Shown: one piece after another, positions 7,671 to 20,892 of the stretch
Position numbering within the stretch: the first letter of the stretch is position 1
Layout: every line of letters starts with the position of its first letter
Origin: Sulfurimonas sp.
GTDB lineage: Bacteria; Campylobacterota; Campylobacteria; Campylobacterales; Sulfurimonadaceae
Direction of reading: 5' to 3'
Length of the DNA stretch: 22,905 nt
Assembly (NCBI GenBank): GCA_002733155.1
Contig: NVUO01000018.1
Location: 7,470 to 30,374, forward strand
Made by a program: the position numbers and the translations under genes
The notes under the pieces: model-generated
The model's input: the letters and a program-made list of their open reading frames with translations, nothing else
The model's database searches: none
What the model was told of the DNA's origin: nothing

Positions 7671-8978
7671 GTGCTGAAAAATACTGTTAAATTTTTATTT
7701 AGTATTTTAATAATTTTACATTTTAATGTATATGCATCTAATACTATACAAATAATTAAAAAAGAAAACAAGGGTTCAGACACTACCCTACTTGTAATAG
7801 CTGGTATTCATGGAGATGAACCTGGTGGATACTTTTCAGCATCTATACTCGCAACTCATTATAAAATAAAATCTAAAAATTTATGGATAATACCAAATCT
7901 AAATAAAAATAGTATTCAAAGAAATGTACGTGGTATAAATGGTGATATGAATAGAAAATTTGCAAAACTTAAAAAAAATGATAAAGATGCAGATATTATT
8001 AAAGATATTAAAAAAATTATTTTATCAGAAAAAGTTTCCTTAGTCTTAAACCTTCATGATGGTCACGGCTTTTATAGAAAAAAAAATCAGGGTAATATAT
8101 TTAATCCAAATGCATGGGGTCAAACTTGTGTAATTGACCAGTGCAATTTAAAACAAAATCAACCATTTGGGAACTTAAATAATATTGCTATATCTGTTAA
8201 AGATAAAATGAATAAAAAGCTTTTAAAACAACATCATAGTTTTGATGTTAGAAATACTAATACTAAGTTTGATGATGAGGCTATGCAACTCTCACTTACA
8301 TACTTTGCAGTAACAAATAATAAACCAGCATTTGCAATTGAGAGTTCTAAAAATCTTTCTTCATTAAGTCAAAAAGTTTTTTATCAACTACTAGCTATAG
8401 AAGAGTTTATGAATATTATGAAAATAAAATTTAGCAAAGACTTTAAACTCACTGAAGAAAATATTTCTAAGATAATCAAAAATTATGGAACATTGGGTAT
8501 AAATAACAATATATTTATTAATTTATCTAATATAAAAAAAAGTTTAAGCTTTATTCCGATAAAATTAAATAGTAATGATTTTAAGTTTTCTAATCCATTA
8601 GGTAGTGTACGTAAAAAACATGGTTATTTCAAAATTTATATAGGTAATAAAAAAATTACTACTTTAAAACCAGATTATTTTAAAATATCTAAAAATTGTT
8701 TAAAAGAATTTGATGTAAAGATAGACAATAAAATATCTAAACTTAAGGCTAGTGAAGATTTTTTTGTTAAAAAAAGCTTTAAAATAATGGCAAAAGACAA
8801 TATTCGCGTTAATATTATTGGATATAAATCCAAAAAACAAAAAAATGAAAATAATATAAATATTAAATATAAAGAGATGAATAAGTGGTATGCAGTCGAT
8901 AAAAATAAAAAAATATATAGGGTTGAATTTTATAAAGATGATAAATTTTGTTTTATGTCTAAAGTTCATTTTAAATAG
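7671..8978 (+). CDS. pgp1: Zinc DL-carboxypeptidase for helical shape (Pgp1/Csd4-like, M14/M99)
   Basis: A signal peptide (about 1-22, ending NVYA) precedes a metallo-carboxypeptidase domain (about 35-255). Zinc ligands appear as His47 and Glu50 in GIHGDEPGG and His129 in NLHDGHG. Substrate-binding residues sit in RGINGDMNR (87-95), and the catalytic Glu is probably Glu224 in FAIESSKN. Helicobacter Csd4 uses Gln at the position of His47; here the canonical His is present. The rest (about 255-435) is a Lys-rich beta-domain tail as in Csd4/Pgp1. These enzymes cut tripeptide to dipeptide stems and, with Pgp2, produce cell curvature. The GTG start lies two bases after the pgp2 stop, and the Shine-Dalgarno is weak, so coupling is likely. 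An A9 run at 8078-8086 lies within the catalytic domain. Confidence 0.87.
   Translation: MLKNTVKFLFSILIILHFNVYASNTIQIIKKENKGSDTTLLVIAGIHGDEPGGYFSASILATHYKIKSKNLWIIPNLNKNSIQRNVRGINGDMNRKFAKLKKNDKDADIIKDIKKIILSEKVSLVLNLHDGHGFYRKKNQGNIFNPNAWGQTCVIDQCNLKQNQPFGNLNNIAISVKDKMNKKLLKQHHSFDVRNTNTKFDDEAMQLSLTYFAVTNNKPAFAIESSKNLSSLSQKVFYQLLAIEEFMNIMKIKFSKDFKLTEENISKIIKNYGTLGINNNIFINLSNIKKSLSFIPIKLNSNDFKFSNPLGSVRKKHGYFKIYIGNKKITTLKPDYFKISKNCLKEFDVKIDNKISKLKASEDFFVKKSFKIMAKDNIRVNIIGYKSKKQKNENNINIKYKEMNKWYAVDKNKKIYRVEFYKDDKFCFMSKVHFK
8078..8086 (+). repeat. A9 homopolymer tract inside pgp1
   Basis: Nine A in a row cover codons 136-139 of the pgp1-like gene, just after the zinc ligand His129. The gene is in frame at this length. 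Loss or gain of one A would truncate the enzyme soon afterwards. Poly-A tract changes in pgp1 are known to switch Campylobacter cells between helical and rod shape, which makes this tract a candidate for the same effect. A second run, A8, lies at 7971-7978. Confidence 0.6.
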
Positions 8979-8989
8979 GATTAAAATAC

Positions 8990-10225
8990 ATGGATAAAAA
9001 AGAACACAATATATATTCAAATGTAATTTCAATTAATCCATATAATAACTCATATATAAATGAAAAATCTGGCTTTTTAAACTCCGTATTATCTCCAAAC
9101 TATTCAAAAGACAAATATGTAATATCATACTTAAATACTAAAGATTTTATAAGCTCTCAAATCTCTATCAGTAAAAATATACCACAAGAAGATATATATG
9201 ATGCTATTTTTTCTAAGGCATATGATGATTTAGCCTTAGATCAGACTATAGAATACCAAATTCAATATATAGAGATTTTCAATTTATTAGATGAAGAAAA
9301 TAGAAACTTTCATCTATTTATAATAGATCCATTTACAATAAAGGATTTATTCTCACAATCTATAAAACAGATTAAATATATAGATTATATAATTCCATCC
9401 CCTCTATTATTAAAATCATTATATAGCAGAGAAATTATACAAAACAATGGGGTACATTGTTTTATTTATTTTGATGAGAAGGACACATTTATAACTATCT
9501 ATAGTGACAAAGAATTTATATATACAAAATCAATAAACTACTCACTAATACAAATGCATGAAAGATTTTGTGAATTATATGGTGAACAGATAGAATACAA
9601 AGAGTTTATAAAATTTTTATCTACACAAAGTTTAAAAACTAGCACTAGCGAATATAAAGAATTTATATTCAAACTCTATAAAGAAATTTTTGCAAATATA
9701 AATGATGTTTTAACTTATGTTAAAAGAGTATTAGAGATACAAAAAATAGACAACATATATATTGGTTCAGCTATATATACAAAAATAAAACTTCATGAGA
9801 TAGCAGAGGTTGAACTTGGTATTAAAAGTACTGAGTTTGATTACGGTTATGACAATAAAAAAAATTTTATAAATCAACTTCATTCATTAATACATATTTA
9901 TGCATCATCAAGCTCAGATGAAAGATATGAAAGTAACTTTACCCTCTATAAGCGTCCACCAAAATTTATAAAAAGACAAAGTGGTAAAATTATTTTACTT
10001 ACAGCTGCATCATTTTTGATAGCCTTTATTTATCCAATAGCATACTGGTCATTATCTTATATGCAAAGTACTAAGTACATCTCACTTCAAAAAGAATATA
10101 AAGAAATACATAATAAAAAAACTACTCTAGAGGCTATTATTAATAATAAAACTTCTCGAAAGAAAAAACTTTATACATTATTAAAAAAAGAAAAGAATAA
10201 TTATATTGAAAAAAAAATACACTAA
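8990..10225 (+). CDS. mshI: MshI-like (PilM/GspL-type) protein, N-terminal part ending at a frameshift
   Basis: Residues about 1-310 have alternating beta/alpha patterning suggestive of a degenerate actin-like (PilM/GspL) cytoplasmic domain. A Lys/Arg-rich stretch (321-333), one membrane segment (333-357) and a coiled coil (about 362-408) follow, the layout of fused PilM-PilN or MshI proteins. The frame stops at TAA 10223-10225 right after a run of nine A. The C-terminal periplasmic domain that should follow lies in the -1 frame at 10210-10512. Joined through one extra A the protein would have 507 residues. It is the first gene of the MSHA-type set, 11 bp after pgp1. Sequence similarity is faint, so the name rests mostly on layout and order (mshI-J-K-L-M-N-E-G). 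Confidence 0.7.
   Translation: MDKKEHNIYSNVISINPYNNSYINEKSGFLNSVLSPNYSKDKYVISYLNTKDFISSQISISKNIPQEDIYDAIFSKAYDDLALDQTIEYQIQYIEIFNLLDEENRNFHLFIIDPFTIKDLFSQSIKQIKYIDYIIPSPLLLKSLYSREIIQNNGVHCFIYFDEKDTFITIYSDKEFIYTKSINYSLIQMHERFCELYGEQIEYKEFIKFLSTQSLKTSTSEYKEFIFKLYKEIFANINDVLTYVKRVLEIQKIDNIYIGSAIYTKIKLHEIAEVELGIKSTEFDYGYDNKKNFINQLHSLIHIYASSSSDERYESNFTLYKRPPKFIKRQSGKIILLTAASFLIAFIYPIAYWSLSYMQSTKYISLQKEYKEIHNKKTTLEAIINNKTSRKKKLYTLLKKEKNNYIEKKIH
10209..10217 (+). repeat. A9 tract at the mshI frameshift
   Basis: Nine consecutive A (codons GAA AAA AAA ATA) lie eight nucleotides before the stop codon that ends the first mshI part. An A10 version, or a -1 ribosomal or transcriptional slip here, would replace the ending KKIH-stop with KKNTLIKIHDV and continue 97 residues to the stop at 10510-10512. 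The downstream frame is open from 10210, immediately after the TGA at 10207-10209. Confidence 0.85.
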
Positions 10226-10257
10226 TTAAGATTCATGATGTTAAAGTAAATTATCCT

Positions 10258-10512
10258 ATGAAAGCTTCTCTTTTATATAAGTTAACAAAAGATTTAAATA
10301 AAAATGGGGTTAAAATAGAATCATTATCATATTCTGAAGCTAAAAATAAAATATTAATACTTAACCTAGTATCGTCTAAGGATAAAAAAATAACTAACCT
10401 TGTAAAATTTTTAACAAATAAATATCAGAATCAATTCCATTTTTCCTTAACTAAAATTTATTATGAAAAAAGTGAAAACAAATACCTTAGTGAATTAAAG
10501 GTAAATTTATAA
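10258..10512 (+). CDS. mshI: C-terminal ferredoxin-like part of MshI, out of frame
   Basis: The 84 residues from Met (10258) are the likely continuation of the preceding gene; the same frame is open back to 10210. Its pattern, MKASLLYKLTKDLNKNGVKIESLSY then KILILNLVSS, then a helix and a closing strand ELKVNL, fits the periplasmic ferredoxin-like domain at the end of PilN/MshI/GspL proteins. There is no good Shine-Dalgarno before 10258. Independent translation is therefore doubtful, and expression probably needs slippage at the A9 tract or a length change there. The stop overlaps the mshJ start (TAATG), so ribosomes finishing this part would feed mshJ. Confidence 0.65.
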   Translation: MKASLLYKLTKDLNKNGVKIESLSYSEAKNKILILNLVSSKDKKITNLVKFLTNKYQNQFHFSLTKIYYEKSENKYLSELKVNL

Positions 10513-11144
10513 TGCAAATCAATATAGAAAATTATTTACAAAAAATAGACTTGTCACTAAATTCAAAAACTAAAAAAGATGTATATATGATTTATATTAT
10601 GCTTTTTATGGGTATATTTTCTTTTTCTTATTTAGTGTTTTGGGATACATCTTTACAAAATTTTAATAAAATGAATAAACAAATCAGTTCAATAGAGGCT
10701 AAATTATTTACTGATAATATTTATCTAAAAAATAATACTGAAGCTAAAATATCAATATTAGAAAAAAAAATTAAAAAAGTACAAATGGATTTAGCAATAA
10801 TTAAAGATAAAAACTCATATATTAAAAACAAAGTAGAGACAATATCTAGCCTTTTATATAATGAAAAAACATGGGGTTCATATATAAACTCTATTTCACA
10901 AAATGCAAAAAAATATAATATAAAAATATTAACTTTTACAAATGAAATTGCAATTTCACATAAATCATTTGGACATATGCTTGACATAAACCTTAATTTT
11001 ACTGGTAATTATATAAATACACTTAGTTTTATTAACTCTTTAGAACAAAGTGAACTAGTAGTTGACTTACATGCTTTAAATATACAGGCTCAAGATAAAC
11101 TTAATACAGATTTAAATATATCTGTATGGGGGATAAACTACTAA
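10512..11144 (+). CDS. mshJ: MshJ-like (PilO/GspM-type) inner-membrane protein
   Basis: The 210-residue protein has a short cytoplasmic N-terminus, one membrane segment (about 24-44), a long Lys-rich coiled coil (about 48-112) and a small alpha/beta periplasmic domain (about 118-210, including WGSYINSISQNAKKYNIKIL). This is the PilO/GspM/MshJ layout, whose members pair with PilN/MshI to form the ring linking inner-membrane platform to secretin. The start overlaps the previous stop by one base (TAATG), and the stop overlaps mshK by one base. An A9 run (10762-10770) encodes in-frame lysines in the coiled coil. Confidence 0.72.
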   Translation: MQINIENYLQKIDLSLNSKTKKDVYMIYIMLFMGIFSFSYLVFWDTSLQNFNKMNKQISSIEAKLFTDNIYLKNNTEAKISILEKKIKKVQMDLAIIKDKNSYIKNKVETISSLLYNEKTWGSYINSISQNAKKYNIKILTFTNEIAISHKSFGHMLDINLNFTGNYINTLSFINSLEQSELVVDLHALNIQAQDKLNTDLNISVWGINY

Positions 11145-11596
11145 TGAAAAAAATTTTAACTTTTAGTATATTATTTATATTTATTTCAATTATTAATTCA
11201 GATGAGTTATCCTGGGTAGATGAACAAGTTAAAGCTATAAAACCAGCTAGACCTGGTATAAACAATTCAATTATTTCTAATATAAAAGACCCATTTCTCT
11301 TTTTAGAAAAAAATGGTTTTAAAAATATAAAAAAAGAGATAAAGAAAAAACATATAGTAAAAATAAAAAAAACTAAATACAAAATAATAAAAAAATATAT
11401 GGCTAAACTTAATTTAGAGATGATTATAAACTCATCCGTCCTAATTAATGGCAGCTGGTATAATATAGGGGACTATATAAAAGGTCAACTTATATCAAAA
11501 GTATACAAAACATCCATAATATTAAACTATAATGGAAAAAAGTCAACTTTGTCTATTCAGAAAAAAAAATATAATTTAAAATTTAAAAAGAAATAG
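11144..11596 (+). CDS. mshK: MshK-like (PilP-type) secretin-linking protein
   Basis: An ATG at 11126 would put six residues before MKKILTF. The ATG at 11144, overlapping the mshJ stop, is preferred because it begins a proper signal peptide (about 1-19, ending IINS) and GGGGGA (11128-11133) lies ten bases upstream. The mature part starts DELSWVDEQVKAIKPARPG and contains DPF (49-51), resembling the DPxRP/DPF segment of MshK/PilP. A basic linker (60-85) follows. A small beta domain (about 90-145, with VLINGSWYNIGDYIKG) looks like the C-terminal homology-region domain that docks on secretin N-domains. Sequence similarity is weak; position between mshJ and mshL supports the name. Confidence 0.65.
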   Translation: MKKILTFSILFIFISIINSDELSWVDEQVKAIKPARPGINNSIISNIKDPFLFLEKNGFKNIKKEIKKKHIVKIKKTKYKIIKKYMAKLNLEMIINSSVLINGSWYNIGDYIKGQLISKVYKTSIILNYNGKKSTLSIQKKKYNLKFKKK

Positions 11597-11604
11597 GAAA
11601 AAGA

Positions 11605-13158
11605 ATGAAATTTTTAAATACAAGTATATTATCTATACTTTTAACACTTTTATTTTCTACAAATGCTGTAGCTGAATGCTCATATGAACTATTTAGCATT
11701 AGCTCAACTAAAGATACTAAGATAGTTGATTTTGTGGAACACCTTAGTAATGAGTGTGATTTAACAATAATTATAACAGATCCATATGCTAGTAAATTTT
11801 TAGATACAAAATTAAATCGTACTAACCTAAATAATTTAACTTTAACAGAAGTTTTAGATATTATATTAAAAGAAAATAATTTATCCTATACCTTAGAAAA
11901 TAATCTTTTAAAAATATCCTATCTTACAACAAAAATGTTTGAAATTGACTATATTTTATCCCAAAGAAGAAGCACAGGCAGTACTGATATTACACTCTCT
12001 TCTCAATCTCAAACTGGAGTAGGAAGTTCTAGTAATTCAGGTGCTAATCAAACTAACTCAAATTCGGGAGGTGGTGGAGGTGCAAGTGGTGGTGGAGCTA
12101 ATGCTATGTCTGGAATTAAAATTGAAACTGTTGATGAAGTTGAATTTTGGGAAAAATTAGATTTAGAGCTTCAAAGAGTTTTAAACAGACCTCAAGATGT
12201 ATATATAGCTGAGCCTCCAATTATAAATAAAAATGCAGGGATTATTACAGTAACTGCAACGATTAAACAGATGAATAGACTAGAGAAATACCTTAAAAAA
12301 CTTCAAGACAAGGTTCAACTACAAGTTTTAATAGATGTAAAACTACTTTCAGTTACATTAAATAAGTCTAAAAGTACTGGTGTAGATTGGGAACAGTTAT
12401 ACGCACTACAAAACTTTAAAGTTGAGAGTTCATTAGCTATGGGGGACACTTTAAATAAAAACTATATTACACTTTCAGGTGGTGGTAGTTTAAATCAGGT
12501 TATTAAATTTTTACAAACCCAAGGTGATGTAAGTTCAATATCCAATCCAAAGGTATTAACTTTAAATAATCAATCAGCTTTAATTACAGCTGGAACTGAA
12601 TATTTTTACAAAATAACAAATTCAACTAACCAAGGTACATCAGGTGGAAGTACAATATCAGTAAATCAGCTAGTTCAATCAGTATTTGCTGGAGTATTAT
12701 TAGATATTACGCCTGAGATATCAGATGATTTAACTATAACTTTAAAAATCAACCCATCATTATCAAGTACAGTTAGTGATATATCTTCAGAAGATAATTC
12801 AAATAGAAGTATGCCCCCTGACCTTGTACGTCGTCAATTAGCAACAGTGGTAACTGTAAAAGATGGTAACCGTATAATACTTGGAGGTTTAATTAATACA
12901 AAAAACTCTGTAGTTACAAGCAAGGTACCTATTTTAGGAGATATACCTATAATAAATAATTTATTTAAATATGAAAATAAAATTAAAGTACTTGAGGAAC
13001 TTGTAATAATTATAGAGCCTCATATTATAAATAAAGATAAAAATAATCTTTCACTAGCAGACCTTGGTTATGATGGTATATCTATAACAAAAGAAAAATC
13101 TTTATCTAAGCAATCTGATCTTTTATTAAAAACTTTTAAGACTAAAGATGCAAAATAA
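11605..13158 (+). CDS. mshL: MshL-like secretin (outer-membrane pilus/secretion channel)
   Basis: The 517-residue protein has a signal peptide (1-23, ending AVA). An N-terminal N0/STN domain (about 35-110) is followed by a Ser/Asn/Gly-rich linker (about 122-170, including a Gly-rich run) and an N1-like domain. The C-terminal secretin beta domain (about 235-475) ends in the diagnostic stretch VPILGDIPIINNLFKY followed by EELVIIIEPHII. Secretins form 12-15-mer gated channels through which the pilus or pseudopilus passes. It has no lipobox. AGGA (11595-11598) precedes the ATG by six bases. The stop overlaps mshM by 11 bases. This is the surest identification of a pilus/T2SS-type machine in the window. 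Confidence 0.9.
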   Translation: MKFLNTSILSILLTLLFSTNAVAECSYELFSISSTKDTKIVDFVEHLSNECDLTIIITDPYASKFLDTKLNRTNLNNLTLTEVLDIILKENNLSYTLENNLLKISYLTTKMFEIDYILSQRRSTGSTDITLSSQSQTGVGSSSNSGANQTNSNSGGGGGASGGGANAMSGIKIETVDEVEFWEKLDLELQRVLNRPQDVYIAEPPIINKNAGIITVTATIKQMNRLEKYLKKLQDKVQLQVLIDVKLLSVTLNKSKSTGVDWEQLYALQNFKVESSLAMGDTLNKNYITLSGGGSLNQVIKFLQTQGDVSSISNPKVLTLNNQSALITAGTEYFYKITNSTNQGTSGGSTISVNQLVQSVFAGVLLDITPEISDDLTITLKINPSLSSTVSDISSEDNSNRSMPPDLVRRQLATVVTVKDGNRIILGGLINTKNSVVTSKVPILGDIPIINNLFKYENKIKVLEELVIIIEPHIINKDKNNLSLADLGYDGISITKEKSLSKQSDLLLKTFKTKDAK

Positions 13159-15249: not shown

Positions 15250-16992
15250 ATGGATAGAATTACACAAGACTTATTGGCCAATGGCTCAATTATGCAAGCT
15301 CAGGTTGATAGACTTTTAGCTAAGGGTCAACACCCACATTTAGTACTTAAAGATATTACTACCTCTGGTTTTATGACTATGGATAGACTAGTTAGGTTTA
15401 TAGTTGAACAAATTAGAAATGGAGTTTATCAACTCTCTATCATAGACAACTATGAATATATAGAAGAAAAAGATATCTTAGAAAAACTAGCCTTTGAATT
15501 AGACTTAGTATATATAGATTTAGATTCCATAGATATGGACTATCAACTACTAAGTAAAGTTTCATTAACTCAATTGCAAAAACACAATGCCTTACCTGTA
15601 TATGTAGATGAGATGAACGTAACTATTGCATTTAATGATCCATTAAATATTGAAGCTCAGGAATCTATACAAAGGTTATTTCCAAAAACACCTATTAAAA
15701 TAGCTATATCTACTAAAAAGCAGATACATTCTTATCTTTTTAAAGTTGAGATAAAAGATAGTATAAAAGGACTAATTAAAAATATTAGAGAGGAACTTAA
15801 TTCTATCAGTTCTCTTGAAGAACAACAAGAGGCATCATCAATCCTACTTTTAATAGATGTAGTTTTAAAAGCCTGTATTAAAAACCGTGCTAGTGATATT
15901 CATATAGAACCTACAGAAAAAAACTGTGTAGTTCGTGCCAGAGTTGATGGTAAACTAACTGAAATGTTTATTTTTGAAAAAGATATATACCCCCCATTAG
16001 CATCAAGATTAAAACTACTTGCAAATCTAGATATAGCCGAAAGACGTAAACCTCAAGATGGTCGTTTTTCTGCTTCAGTTGGTTTTAAAGAGTATGACTT
16101 TCGTATATCAACCCTACCTATATTATATGGTGAATCTATAGTTATGAGGATATTAGACAAACAAAGGGTATTAGTTAAACTAGAAGATGCAGGTATGGAT
16201 TCTTTGAGTTATCAAAAATTTCTAAAAGGACTTAAAACTCCCTATGGACTTATTTTAGTAACTGGTCCTACTGGTTCTGGTAAGACTACTACACTTTATG
16301 GAGCCCTAAATGACTTAAGAAATACTGCAGATAAGGTAATTACAGTGGAAGATCCTGTTGAGTATAGGATGAATCTTATTCAACAAGTTCAAGTAAATCC
16401 AAAAATTGGTTTAAATTTTGCAGATGCACTTAGATCTATTTTAAGACAAGATCCAGATAAGATTATGATTGGAGAAATTAGGGATCATGAGACCTTAGAA
16501 ATAGCTATAAAAGCAGCCTTAACTGGTCACTTAGTTATTTCAACCTTACATACAAATGATTCAATATCTGCAATAGCTCGTATGGTTGATATGGGAGCTG
16601 AGCATTATCTAATCTCTGGGGCTTTAATTGCTATTCAAGCCCAAAGATTAGTTAGAAAAATATGCCCACACTGTAAGGTGCAAGATACAATTGCTAGTTC
16701 AGTCCTTGAAGATTTAAAAGAATATATCACATTAAACTCAGATATAGTTTTTCATATAGGTCATGGATGTAAAGAGTGTAATGATACTGGTTATCTAGGA
16801 AGAGAAATGATTTGTGAGGTATTAACTATAACTGAAGACATGTCCTCACTAATAGCTAAAGGCTCATCATATGACACATTATTATCTCAAGCAATTAAAG
16901 ATGGTTTTATTGGACTTTTACAAAATGGTATAGATAAGGCTATAAGTGGAGTTACTAGCCTTAAAGAAGTTTTAAGAGTTGCAAAAGGATGA
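15250..16992 (+). CDS. mshE: MshE/GspE/PilB-type pilus assembly ATPase
   Basis: The 580-residue cytoplasmic motor has Walker A GPTGSGKT (339-346), Asp box ITVEDPVEY (364-372), Walker B IMIGEIRD (405-412), His box GHLVISTLHTN (426-436) and a zinc-type four-cysteine set (Cys472, 475, 507, 510), all standard for assembly ATPases rather than retraction ATPases. The N-terminal domain shows three MshEN-like repeats at about 3-26, 31-54 and 60-83. Their hydrophobic pattern is kept, but the RLG signature that contacts cyclic di-GMP reads RIT, LVL and YQL. It powers pilin polymerisation with MshG. It starts six bases after the previous stop and overlaps mshG by four bases (ATGA). Confidence 0.93.
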   Translation: MDRITQDLLANGSIMQAQVDRLLAKGQHPHLVLKDITTSGFMTMDRLVRFIVEQIRNGVYQLSIIDNYEYIEEKDILEKLAFELDLVYIDLDSIDMDYQLLSKVSLTQLQKHNALPVYVDEMNVTIAFNDPLNIEAQESIQRLFPKTPIKIAISTKKQIHSYLFKVEIKDSIKGLIKNIREELNSISSLEEQQEASSILLLIDVVLKACIKNRASDIHIEPTEKNCVVRARVDGKLTEMFIFEKDIYPPLASRLKLLANLDIAERRKPQDGRFSASVGFKEYDFRISTLPILYGESIVMRILDKQRVLVKLEDAGMDSLSYQKFLKGLKTPYGLILVTGPTGSGKTTTLYGALNDLRNTADKVITVEDPVEYRMNLIQQVQVNPKIGLNFADALRSILRQDPDKIMIGEIRDHETLEIAIKAALTGHLVISTLHTNDSISAIARMVDMGAEHYLISGALIAIQAQRLVRKICPHCKVQDTIASSVLEDLKEYITLNSDIVFHIGHGCKECNDTGYLGREMICEVLTITEDMSSLIAKGSSYDTLLSQAIKDGFIGLLQNGIDKAISGVTSLKEVLRVAKG

Positions 16993-18857: not shown

Positions 18858-19568
18858 TTATGAAAGATTTGTAAAAACCTTTTGTACATCTTCATCATCT
18901 TCTAACTTTTCAAGTAATAAATCAATCTCTGCTTGTTGCTCTTCATTTATTGATATTGGAGAATTTGCCATACGCTCTAGAGTTGCTTTTTTTATCTCAA
19001 TATCCATATTTTCAAGTGCAGAAGTTAAAGTACCAAAACTAGTATAATTGGCTGTAACAAGAACTTCATTTTCATTCTCTTCTATCTCTTGTAATCCTGC
19101 ATCAATTAATTCAAGTTCTAATTCTTCAATATCCATACCCTCTTTTAAATCAAATTCTATTAAGGCTTTTCTATCAAACATAAATTCTAATGAACCATTT
19201 GTTAGTAATTCTCCACCACGTTTTGTGAGAATATTTTTAACATTTGCAACTGTCCTAGTATTATTATCAGTCATAGTTTCAACAAATATTAAAACTCCAT
19301 GAGGTGCCTTACATTCATAATTCACTTCAGTCATACTAGCTGTATCTTTTGCACTTGCTCTTTTAATAGCAGCTTCTATATTATCCTTAGGCATATTCTC
19401 AGCCTTTGCATTTAAAATAGCTGTACGAAGTTTAGAGTTCATATCTGGGTTACTACTACCCTCTTTTGCAGCCATAGTAATAATTTTTCCAAGTTTTGGG
19501 AATAACTTTGACATCGCTCCCCATCTCTTCATTTTAGATGCTTTTCTATATTCAAAGGCTCTACCCAT
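18858..19568 (-). CDS. yebC: YebC/PmpR (TACO1) family protein
   Basis: The 236-residue protein begins [20 protein letters not shown] and has the family blocks [24 protein letters not shown] and [14 protein letters not shown], with an acidic C-terminal third. The family was first described as transcription regulators; more recent work ties members to ribosomes and translation of difficult stretches. AAGGAA on the minus strand lies six to seven bases before the ATG. The divergent region (19569-19645) contains an inverted repeat with a possible -10 for this gene (TATAAT, 19633 to 19628), giving a leader of about 53 nt. Confidence 0.95.
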
Positions 19569-19610
19569 AAAAAGTTCCTTACTTATTAATATTGTTTAAA
19601 AATCAAAGGT

Positions 19611-19645: not shown

Positions 19646-20137
19646 ATGAGACTTAGTTTTAAAATAAAACACTATTTTTTTAGTGCTTTTCGTGAATTTT
19701 TCGTACACCACCATAATTCTTTGGAGTTTCGTGCAAAACTTTTTGCACTTCTTATAGCAGCAGATGAAAAATCAAGTTTACAAAGCTGTTTAATTGTTAA
19801 AAATATAGGTATGGATATTTACAAAAATGATGAAGATAGATCAAACCTTCTAATGTTATCAACTAAAGAACTAGTACAAAAGGTAAAAGATAATAATGGT
19901 CTTGATATAGATACACTTATAACAAATATTCAAAAAGAAGTAAGAATTATACCTAGGTATGCTAAAAAAATTAATATTGAAAACTTACAACAACTACTTA
20001 ATTTAACGACAGATGTAGATGTACTTGCATATCAAGAAAATATTATAGAATTTTTACAAACACTTAAAGATGATACACTTCAAAATAAAAAGCAACAAAT
20101 TGCAAAAGATGAAGAGAACTTAGAATCTAAATATTAA
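19646..20137 (+). CDS. Conserved-looking small cytoplasmic protein, function unknown
   Basis: The 163-residue product starts MRLSFKIKHYFFSAFREFF, then HHHNSLEFRAKLFALLIAADE, and is mostly helical with a charged C-terminus. No signal peptide is seen. The first helices, with a conserved-looking EFRAKLFALLIAADE, recall TerB-like helical domains, but I cannot claim membership. A strong GGAGGA lies five bases before the ATG, and a 9-bp inverted repeat abuts it. It is divergent from yebC and overlaps the 3' end of ttcA by four bases tail to tail. Codon use is like its neighbours. Confidence 0.7.
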   Translation: MRLSFKIKHYFFSAFREFFVHHHNSLEFRAKLFALLIAADEKSSLQSCLIVKNIGMDIYKNDEDRSNLLMLSTKELVQKVKDNNGLDIDTLITNIQKEVRIIPRYAKKINIENLQQLLNLTTDVDVLAYQENIIEFLQTLKDDTLQNKKQQIAKDEENLESKY

Positions 20138-20892
20138 AGGCTAAACTTCTCTTTATCAAAAAAACTCTCTTGTGAGATATTTTTAAATGCCGCATTTAAA
20201 GAAACAAAAAGTGAGGGAAAATCATTTTCCATTTTTGCAAGCATAACTTTCATACTAGCTCTTGCATGTGGCATTTTAACATCAAAACGCATAGCTGGAC
20301 AGGCTTCATCGCCAATAGCTTCAATATTATTATCTTCAACAAAAGCCTTAAGTTGTCTCTCCCTCATTTGAATAAGTGGACGAATTACTATAAGACCATT
20401 TTTAGCCTTGTAAATTGGTGCTAATGAACGCATTTGACCATTATAAATAAAATTCATAAAAAAGCTCTCGCAAGCATCATCAATATGGTGACCAAGTGCT
20501 ACCTTATTACAGCCCTGTTCCAAGGCTACACTATAAAGATAACCCCTACGCATCCTAGAGAAAAAAGAACAAAAAGATGAATTTTTTCTAATTTTTTCTT
20601 TTGCTAATTCATATGTATTAGTATTATGAATGATATGTTTAATATTATATTCTTCACAATGTTTTGATAGTTTATCGAAGTTCTCACCCATGCCATAAGC
20701 AATAGTTACAGCTATAAACTCAAACTTAAACGGGGCACGACGTTGTTGCTCTTTCATAGCATGAATCATAGTTAAAGAATCTTTACCACCACTAAGTCCA
20801 ACTAGAATCTTATCACCCTCTTGTATCAATCCAAACTCAGCATTTGTTTTTCCAAGTTTTGACATGATTTTTTTAGAAATTTTAATCGACAA
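20134..20892 (-). CDS. ttcA: TtcA-like tRNA 2-thiolation enzyme
   Basis: The 252-residue protein has the PP-loop SGGKDS (34-39), the family block CSFFSRMRRGYLY (108-120), GHHIDDACESFFMN (134-147) and IRPLIQMRER (170-179). TtcA adenylates cytidine 32 of certain tRNAs and adds sulfur using a 4Fe-4S cluster. Escherichia coli TtcA holds that cluster with a CxxC pair and a distal Cys. Here the first Cys (108) and the probable distal Cys (198) are present, but the second of the pair is Phe111. It may belong to a TtcA-like Campylobacterota subgroup with altered cluster binding or target. It overlaps mtn by 11 bases and is probably translated with it. Confidence 0.85.
   Translation of the reverse strand: MSIKISKKIMSKLGKTNAEFGLIQEGDKILVGLSGGKDSLTMIHAMKEQQRRAPFKFEFIAVTIAYGMGENFDKLSKHCEEYNIKHIIHNTNTYELAKEKIRKNSSFCSFFSRMRRGYLYSVALEQGCNKVALGHHIDDACESFFMNFIYNGQMRSLAPIYKAKNGLIVIRPLIQMRERQLKAFVEDNNIEAIGDEACPAMRFDVKMPHARASMKVMLAKMENDFPSLFVSLNAAFKNISQESFFDKEKFSL

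Follow-up and report, generated by a model that had tools for sequence, protein, structure and literature searches.

The gene at the mshI position of an MSHA-type cluster in this Sulfurimonas sp. genome is recorded as two pieces, with the change of frame exactly at a run of nine adenines, and the question is whether this split is a phase switch, a site of programmed slippage, an accidental mutation of the cells or a product of the assembly. The window, by which we mean the whole stretch of 22,905 nucleotides analysed here, lies within contig C6 of a metagenome assembly of 2,292,288 bases in 44 contigs, 84% complete. Coordinates are collected in Table 1.

Table 1. Coordinates of the split gene, its neighbours and the transposase copies discussed in the text (window positions, unless a contig is named).
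Feature	Position	Strand	Remarks
mshI-position gene, upstream piece, 411 aa	8990..10225	+	Predicted PilM/FtsA-like actin fold, transmembrane helix, start of long periplasmic helix; fold from model of relative P0002
A9 tract, site of frame change	10209..10217	+	Lysine codons of conserved EKKN block
TAA stop terminating upstream piece	10223..10225	+	
Downstream piece, -1 frame, 98 aa + stop	10216..10512	+	End of long helix and predicted GspL/PilN-like periplasmic domain; 77% identity to P0002
First ATG of downstream piece	10258..10260	+	Methionine within relatives' conserved block NYPMKA
mshJ / PilO-like gene	10512..11144	+	Start overlaps mshI stop; own A9 (10762-10770) in frame
MshL-type secretin	11605..13158	+	TIGR02519, 242.9 bits vs cut-off 250.2
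MshE-type ATPase	15250..16992	+	MshEN and T2SSE domains
Transposase copies in the window's genome	C1:10270-10929; C23:1062-1721; C10:853-1452	-; +; -	
Transposase loci with conserved A9G tract	L198, L200, L219, L202, L226		

The first-pass annotation had described a -1 frame change at the A9 tract with the -1 frame open from 10210, and both points hold. The TAA that ends the upstream piece is in frame and lies eight bases 3' of the tract, where the zero-frame codons read GAA AAA AAA ATA, and the -1 frame is open over 10210-10509 and ends in a TAA at 10510-10512. The downstream part had been given as 97 residues, whereas the homologous stretch begins at 10216 and comprises 98; the joined length of 507 residues stands as read, the proteins of the four nearest relatives measuring 507-509 aa. 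On alignment with relatives, the frame change sits within the conserved block EKKNTLIKIHDVKV, of which a second rendering is EKKNTLIKIHDVKVNYPMKA. The downstream piece shares 75 of its 98 residues with P0002 (77%, E 3e-47), the 509-aa protein that is its nearest known relative, and because this match is strong and the split interrupts conserved sequence, the split is more than chance. Identity of the upstream piece to P0002 is 75% (38, 40, 37, 45, 42, 31, 42 and 28 per 50 in successive blocks, then 4/8), and GC at the three codon positions is 0.29/0.18/0.14 in the downstream piece versus 0.30/0.24/0.16 upstream. By its identity to P0002 and its codon-position GC, the downstream piece is undecayed.

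Taken together, the two pieces would make an ordinary MshI/GspL-like gene, encoding a PilM-like domain, a transmembrane helix, a periplasmic helix and a PilN/GspL-like domain. This chain is predicted from a structural model of P0002 (mean pLDDT 70.2, pTM 0.47), the window's own protein being known by sequence only, and in VIA-align comparisons of the model with the PDB, FtsA comes very close to equalling PilM for the first domain. The surroundings are those of an MSHA-type cluster, with PilO, secretin, MshEN-T2SSE and T2SSF domains encoded 3' of mshI. No Pfam or NCBIfam family reached its cut-off for the mshI-position protein: PilM_2 scored 14.8 bits against 27 in P0002, in 1 of 48 family members, no NCBIfam family was returned for the upstream piece, and a sequence search of the PDB with the family profile gave no match. 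Directly 5' of mshI, the gene at 7671-8978 is hit by some 90 ORFs used as references from the loci of relatives and seems, from these matches, to be a steady neighbour of the msh cluster.

A comparison of related mshI genes for one-frame versions, as had been advised, found them in abundance. A match to mshI is present in 117 of 135 genomes of the genus, and one open frame of at least 473 codons in 103 of the 116 other than the window's own (104 places, G081 having two), a count made by hand from the genome match table that includes two genomes (G039 and G017) whose contig ends after the junction. Among the remaining 13, the gene stops at contig ends in four (G115, G100, G108 and G079), the match is distant in G008 (22%), and it is partial in G132, G052, G023, G025, G058, G091 and G127. 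In the one-contig genome G032, mshI carries an apparent, independent break near residue 216 (L125, about 2186), away from long homopolymers. When loci were considered, 107 of 132 matched P0002, which leaves 105 once the window's own two are subtracted; 101 of these cross the junction in one frame, four end before it, and a split at the junction was found in 0 of the 101. These comparisons indicate that the single frame is the normal, working form of the family, as first proposed. As named and unnamed loci overlap, distinct junction sequences were counted for what follows. The overlap of the mshI stop with the mshJ start, noted in the first pass, is real: among 73 distinct junctions, the mshJ ATG stands one base before the mshI stop codon (-1) 70 times, at +2 twice and at -6 once, and it is at +2 in the window, where it occupies 10512-10514 and overlaps the TAA. 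Such stop-start overlap thus appears conserved in kind.

How far the recorded tract length can be trusted depends on the assembly, whose soundness at homopolymers is doubtful. Isolated Ns number 81 in its first 313 kb and 177 in 672 kb, and they are not mainly at homopolymers: among the 81, two adjoin one of length 8 and five one of length 6. For 78 of the Ns in these first 313 kb the effect on the reading frame was assessed: the frame is kept at 46, the effect is unclear at 29, and three amount to an extra base. Two of these three adjoin A8 tracts, one in an lpoB-like and one in an ftsH-like gene (L150:6674 and L152:15034), and in polA (L239:5005) an N just past A7-G likewise shifts the frame as an extra base. 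The gene for DNA polymerase I is unlikely to be really broken. Mixed patches of Ns and letters occur in L133, L134, L141 and L142, and redundant near-identical stretches among contigs C1, C2, C4, C5, C9 and C23. In the 197 kb covered by relatives' proteins there are six broken genes, five of which rest on one reference protein: mshI (56 references) and hypF without an N, polA and the lpoB-like and ftsH-like genes with one N each, and one at an N patch. In hypF the frame changes at an identical position in each of two redundant contigs (L134:3757-3796 and L229 near 11509-11548), with no N and a single reference, and a further frame-break candidate lies at a T8 in L144. As controls, G012, a genome in one contig, showed no frame break over 110 kb, and 80 named contigs (1.18 Mb covered) contained one break in L069 and four in L080 with at least 12 references, although the rates of the named contigs and of the window's genome are only roughly comparable, since the named contigs come from around the msh genes and the depth of reference support differs. 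Short homopolymers are near the L069 and L080 breaks (A6, A7/A8, T6, C5 and A7). Single-reference events in L056, L060, L064, L076, L089, L090, L095 and L098 and one in L080 were not counted, although five of the six breaks counted in the window's genome have no more than one reference either, so that the two rates are not fully equivalent; the event in L059 had three references. Two apparent events in the window, near 19571 (one reference) and 20880 (two), were rejected, being antisense to 18858-19568 and 20134-20892 and vanishing when non-overlapping ORF references were used.

We consider it somewhat probable that the recorded A9 is a one-base homopolymer length error of the metagenome assembly. 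In such a scenario, the lysine-rich helix of an ordinary single-frame gene would happen to be encoded by an uninterrupted A tract, the assembly would have misjudged its length by one base and so created an apparent split, and the cells would probably carry one open mshI frame. This explanation gains from the one-frame form of the 101 covering loci and 103 of 116 genomes, from the undecayed state of the downstream piece, and from the extra-base Ns beside A7/A8 runs in polA and in the ftsH-like and lpoB-like genes. Indel ambiguity is observed at those other homopolymers, and we infer that the mshI tract would be one more error of the kind. It is weakened because the window is without any N, so that no conflict is flagged at the tract (Ns stand directly at both ends of its contig), because mshI and hypF are the only N-free breaks, too few for a firm rate, and because mshI is the only break in the 47.6 kb covered of its 70-kb contig. 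It is weakened also because the 411-aa form is found on two contigs, though their sizes (the longest at 71,007 and the window's own at 70,674) suggest one scaffold stored twice. A systematic under-calling of long A runs was dropped as a cause, because the A9 of transposases in this genome agrees with the A9 of other genomes. A homopolymer error had been named from the start as the main rival to the biological readings; the condition of the assembly strengthens it, and it is not proven.

The alternative that survives best is that strand slippage really did shorten the A tract, not long ago and without selection as a switch, in most of the population sampled, with the full protein still partly made through slippage by the ribosome or RNA polymerase. 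We regard this as possible, and favour the assembly error over it. Because A9 slippage and real A-tract indels in AT-rich genomes are both on record, a leaky, unselected slip is the main rival; such precedents do not imply a programmed site. In passages of the respective papers, in fact, C. jejuni fliR is described with A8 or A7 (PMC7677240), eight genes of Blochmannia vafer as frameshifted at A/T tracts (PMC3017870), an A9 cassette of another gene as giving 40% frameshifting in vivo (PMC3711429), and transcriptional insertions as rising exponentially with homopolymer length (PMC5574713). Moreover, there is no N at the tract, and mshI looks dispensable, having no match in five of the genus's 79 near-complete genomes and being apparently broken in G032. 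On the other hand, with an undecayed downstream piece such a slip would need either a very recent origin or a rescue, and the assembly is indel-prone elsewhere. A second allele was sought in protein matches as well, and among the best 120 of 909 none is of the same species, the next best being at 75%; no DNA of closer relatives was found, the best genome match being 63%.

Much less probable is a selected contingency tract, the phase switch of the first-pass annotation, in which one-base slips would turn an MSHA-type pilus on and off in a free-living Sulfurimonas. That the A9 form would be a leaky OFF state, with some full MshI made by slippage, seems to us equally improbable. Surface structures are typical targets of phase variation, according to part of one report (PMC3711429), a change of A-tract length in C. 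jejuni truncates a protein and tracks motility in the portion of another that describes it (PMC7677240), and the A9 is exactly at the break. The tract, however, is not kept. Over 78 distinct junction sequences, the longest A run at the homologous place is 3 (two sequences), 4 (three), 5 (43), 6 (nine), 7 (three) or 8 (18), with A9 in none; the commonest form is a run of five with a G inside. The KKN codons thus appear to be conserved and the unbroken A run does not. Nor are A tracts enriched in the msh cluster beyond synonymous-codon shuffles, which rule out that candidate, as five runs of at least 9 compare with 7.8 expected and 12 of at least 8 with 12.1. Other A9 runs inside ORFs of the window (8078, 10762, 11561 and 14749) are spanned in frame by 92, 98, 3 and 2 matches, the last two counts being small, and none of the 101 other covering loci is split at the site. 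For the mshI tract itself, 60 matches listed as spanning it were not used, as we read them as downstream-frame matches extending slightly 5' in lysine-rich sequence; one such match begins at 10159. An A9 is also ordinary for this genome, 672 kb of which contain 73 A/T runs of length 9, besides four of length 10 and a single one of length 11; runs of at least 10 number five in these 672 kb versus none in 0.8 Mb and none in 1.25 Mb of relatives. Among the 29 runs of at least 9 inside ORFs of the first 313 kb, that of mshI is the closest to its stop, at eight bases, followed by distances of 22, 27 and 40 bases, the 22 and the 40 belonging to transposase copies that also change frame. The tests made gave no sign of an evolved on/off switch, and the proposal is unsupported by these comparisons.

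Programmed -1 frameshifting at A_AAA_AAA, or programmed transcriptional slippage, yielding a short and a long MshI, had been offered alongside the switch and appears very unlikely. The heptamer is indeed contained in GAA AAA AAA ATA and is a known slippery sequence according to part of PMC3711429, and the DUF772 transposases of this genus have conserved A9G sites of a related kind, a cluster of this type being shown to recode in that work. Yet a programmed site is expected to be conserved, and neither the split nor the tract is present in the other loci examined: junction runs of 3 to 8 A in the 78 distinct sequences rule out a conserved slippery site. The model also predicts that a short MshI would be left without any of the GspL/PilN-like domain.

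That two separate genes are present, the second with its true start at the ATG of 10258, we regard as practically excluded by the one-frame relatives, since this ATG, although present, is an internal methionine of NYPMKA there, is not directly preceded by an AGGA-like ribosome site, as had already been noticed, and would start a product without a membrane anchor, whereas the covering loci hold one gene and two conserved genes were not seen.

The transposases deserve a comment of their own. DUF772 and DDE transposases in the window's genome and in G029, G074, G070 and G064 have TCTT-A9-GCAA in common and carry their second half in the -1 frame. Copies in G095 and G076 have the A9 and are nonetheless in one frame, and the copy in G121 has A8. 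In all, A9 was found in 11 of 15 fragments compared, four of them from the window's own genome, after loci whose match stopped earlier were skipped, and one own-genome copy has A8 where a near-identical copy has A9. Their frame change at A9 looks, on sequence comparison, like recoding rather than error.

If the mshI split were real, A-tract switching would extend to pilus assembly in free-living Campylobacterota. Our findings advise caution: a frameshift that is seen at an A run in only one AT-rich metagenome genome should be weighed against the homopolymer record of the assembly and against relatives before anyone infers a switch.

Among known systems, MshI/GspL-type assembly proteins, fusions of PilM and PilN, are the closest in architecture, and the gene described here differs from them in its split frame and in reaching no family cut-off. 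Contingency genes have a tract kept in relatives or enriched beyond codon expectation, neither of which was found, and a programmed -1 frameshift combines a conserved slippery site with an equally conserved frame change, compared with a split in 0 of the 101 other covering loci and A runs of 3-8 in 78 distinct sequences here. The DUF772 (IS1182) cluster, for which frameshifting of up to 24% is given in part of PMC3711429, and which the transposases above resemble, shares with mshI an A-rich slippery site and a second half in another frame, but the site is conserved in the transposases and not in mshI. In C. jejuni fliR, likewise of the Campylobacterota, a one-base A-tract change also truncates a surface-apparatus protein; there, however, as described in a section of PMC7677240, both lengths were counted in reads and the share with A8 versus A7 follows motility, whereas mshI is a single consensus. 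As for A-tract genes rescued by slippage, passages of PMC3017870 report that four Blochmannia vafer genes frameshifted only at A/T tracts show no unusual acceleration and that slippage may correct genes broken in this way. Although mshI differs in being known only from the consensus DNA of a doubtful assembly, it has in common with them an AT-rich genome, a single A-tract indel and an undecayed gene, the downstream part included.
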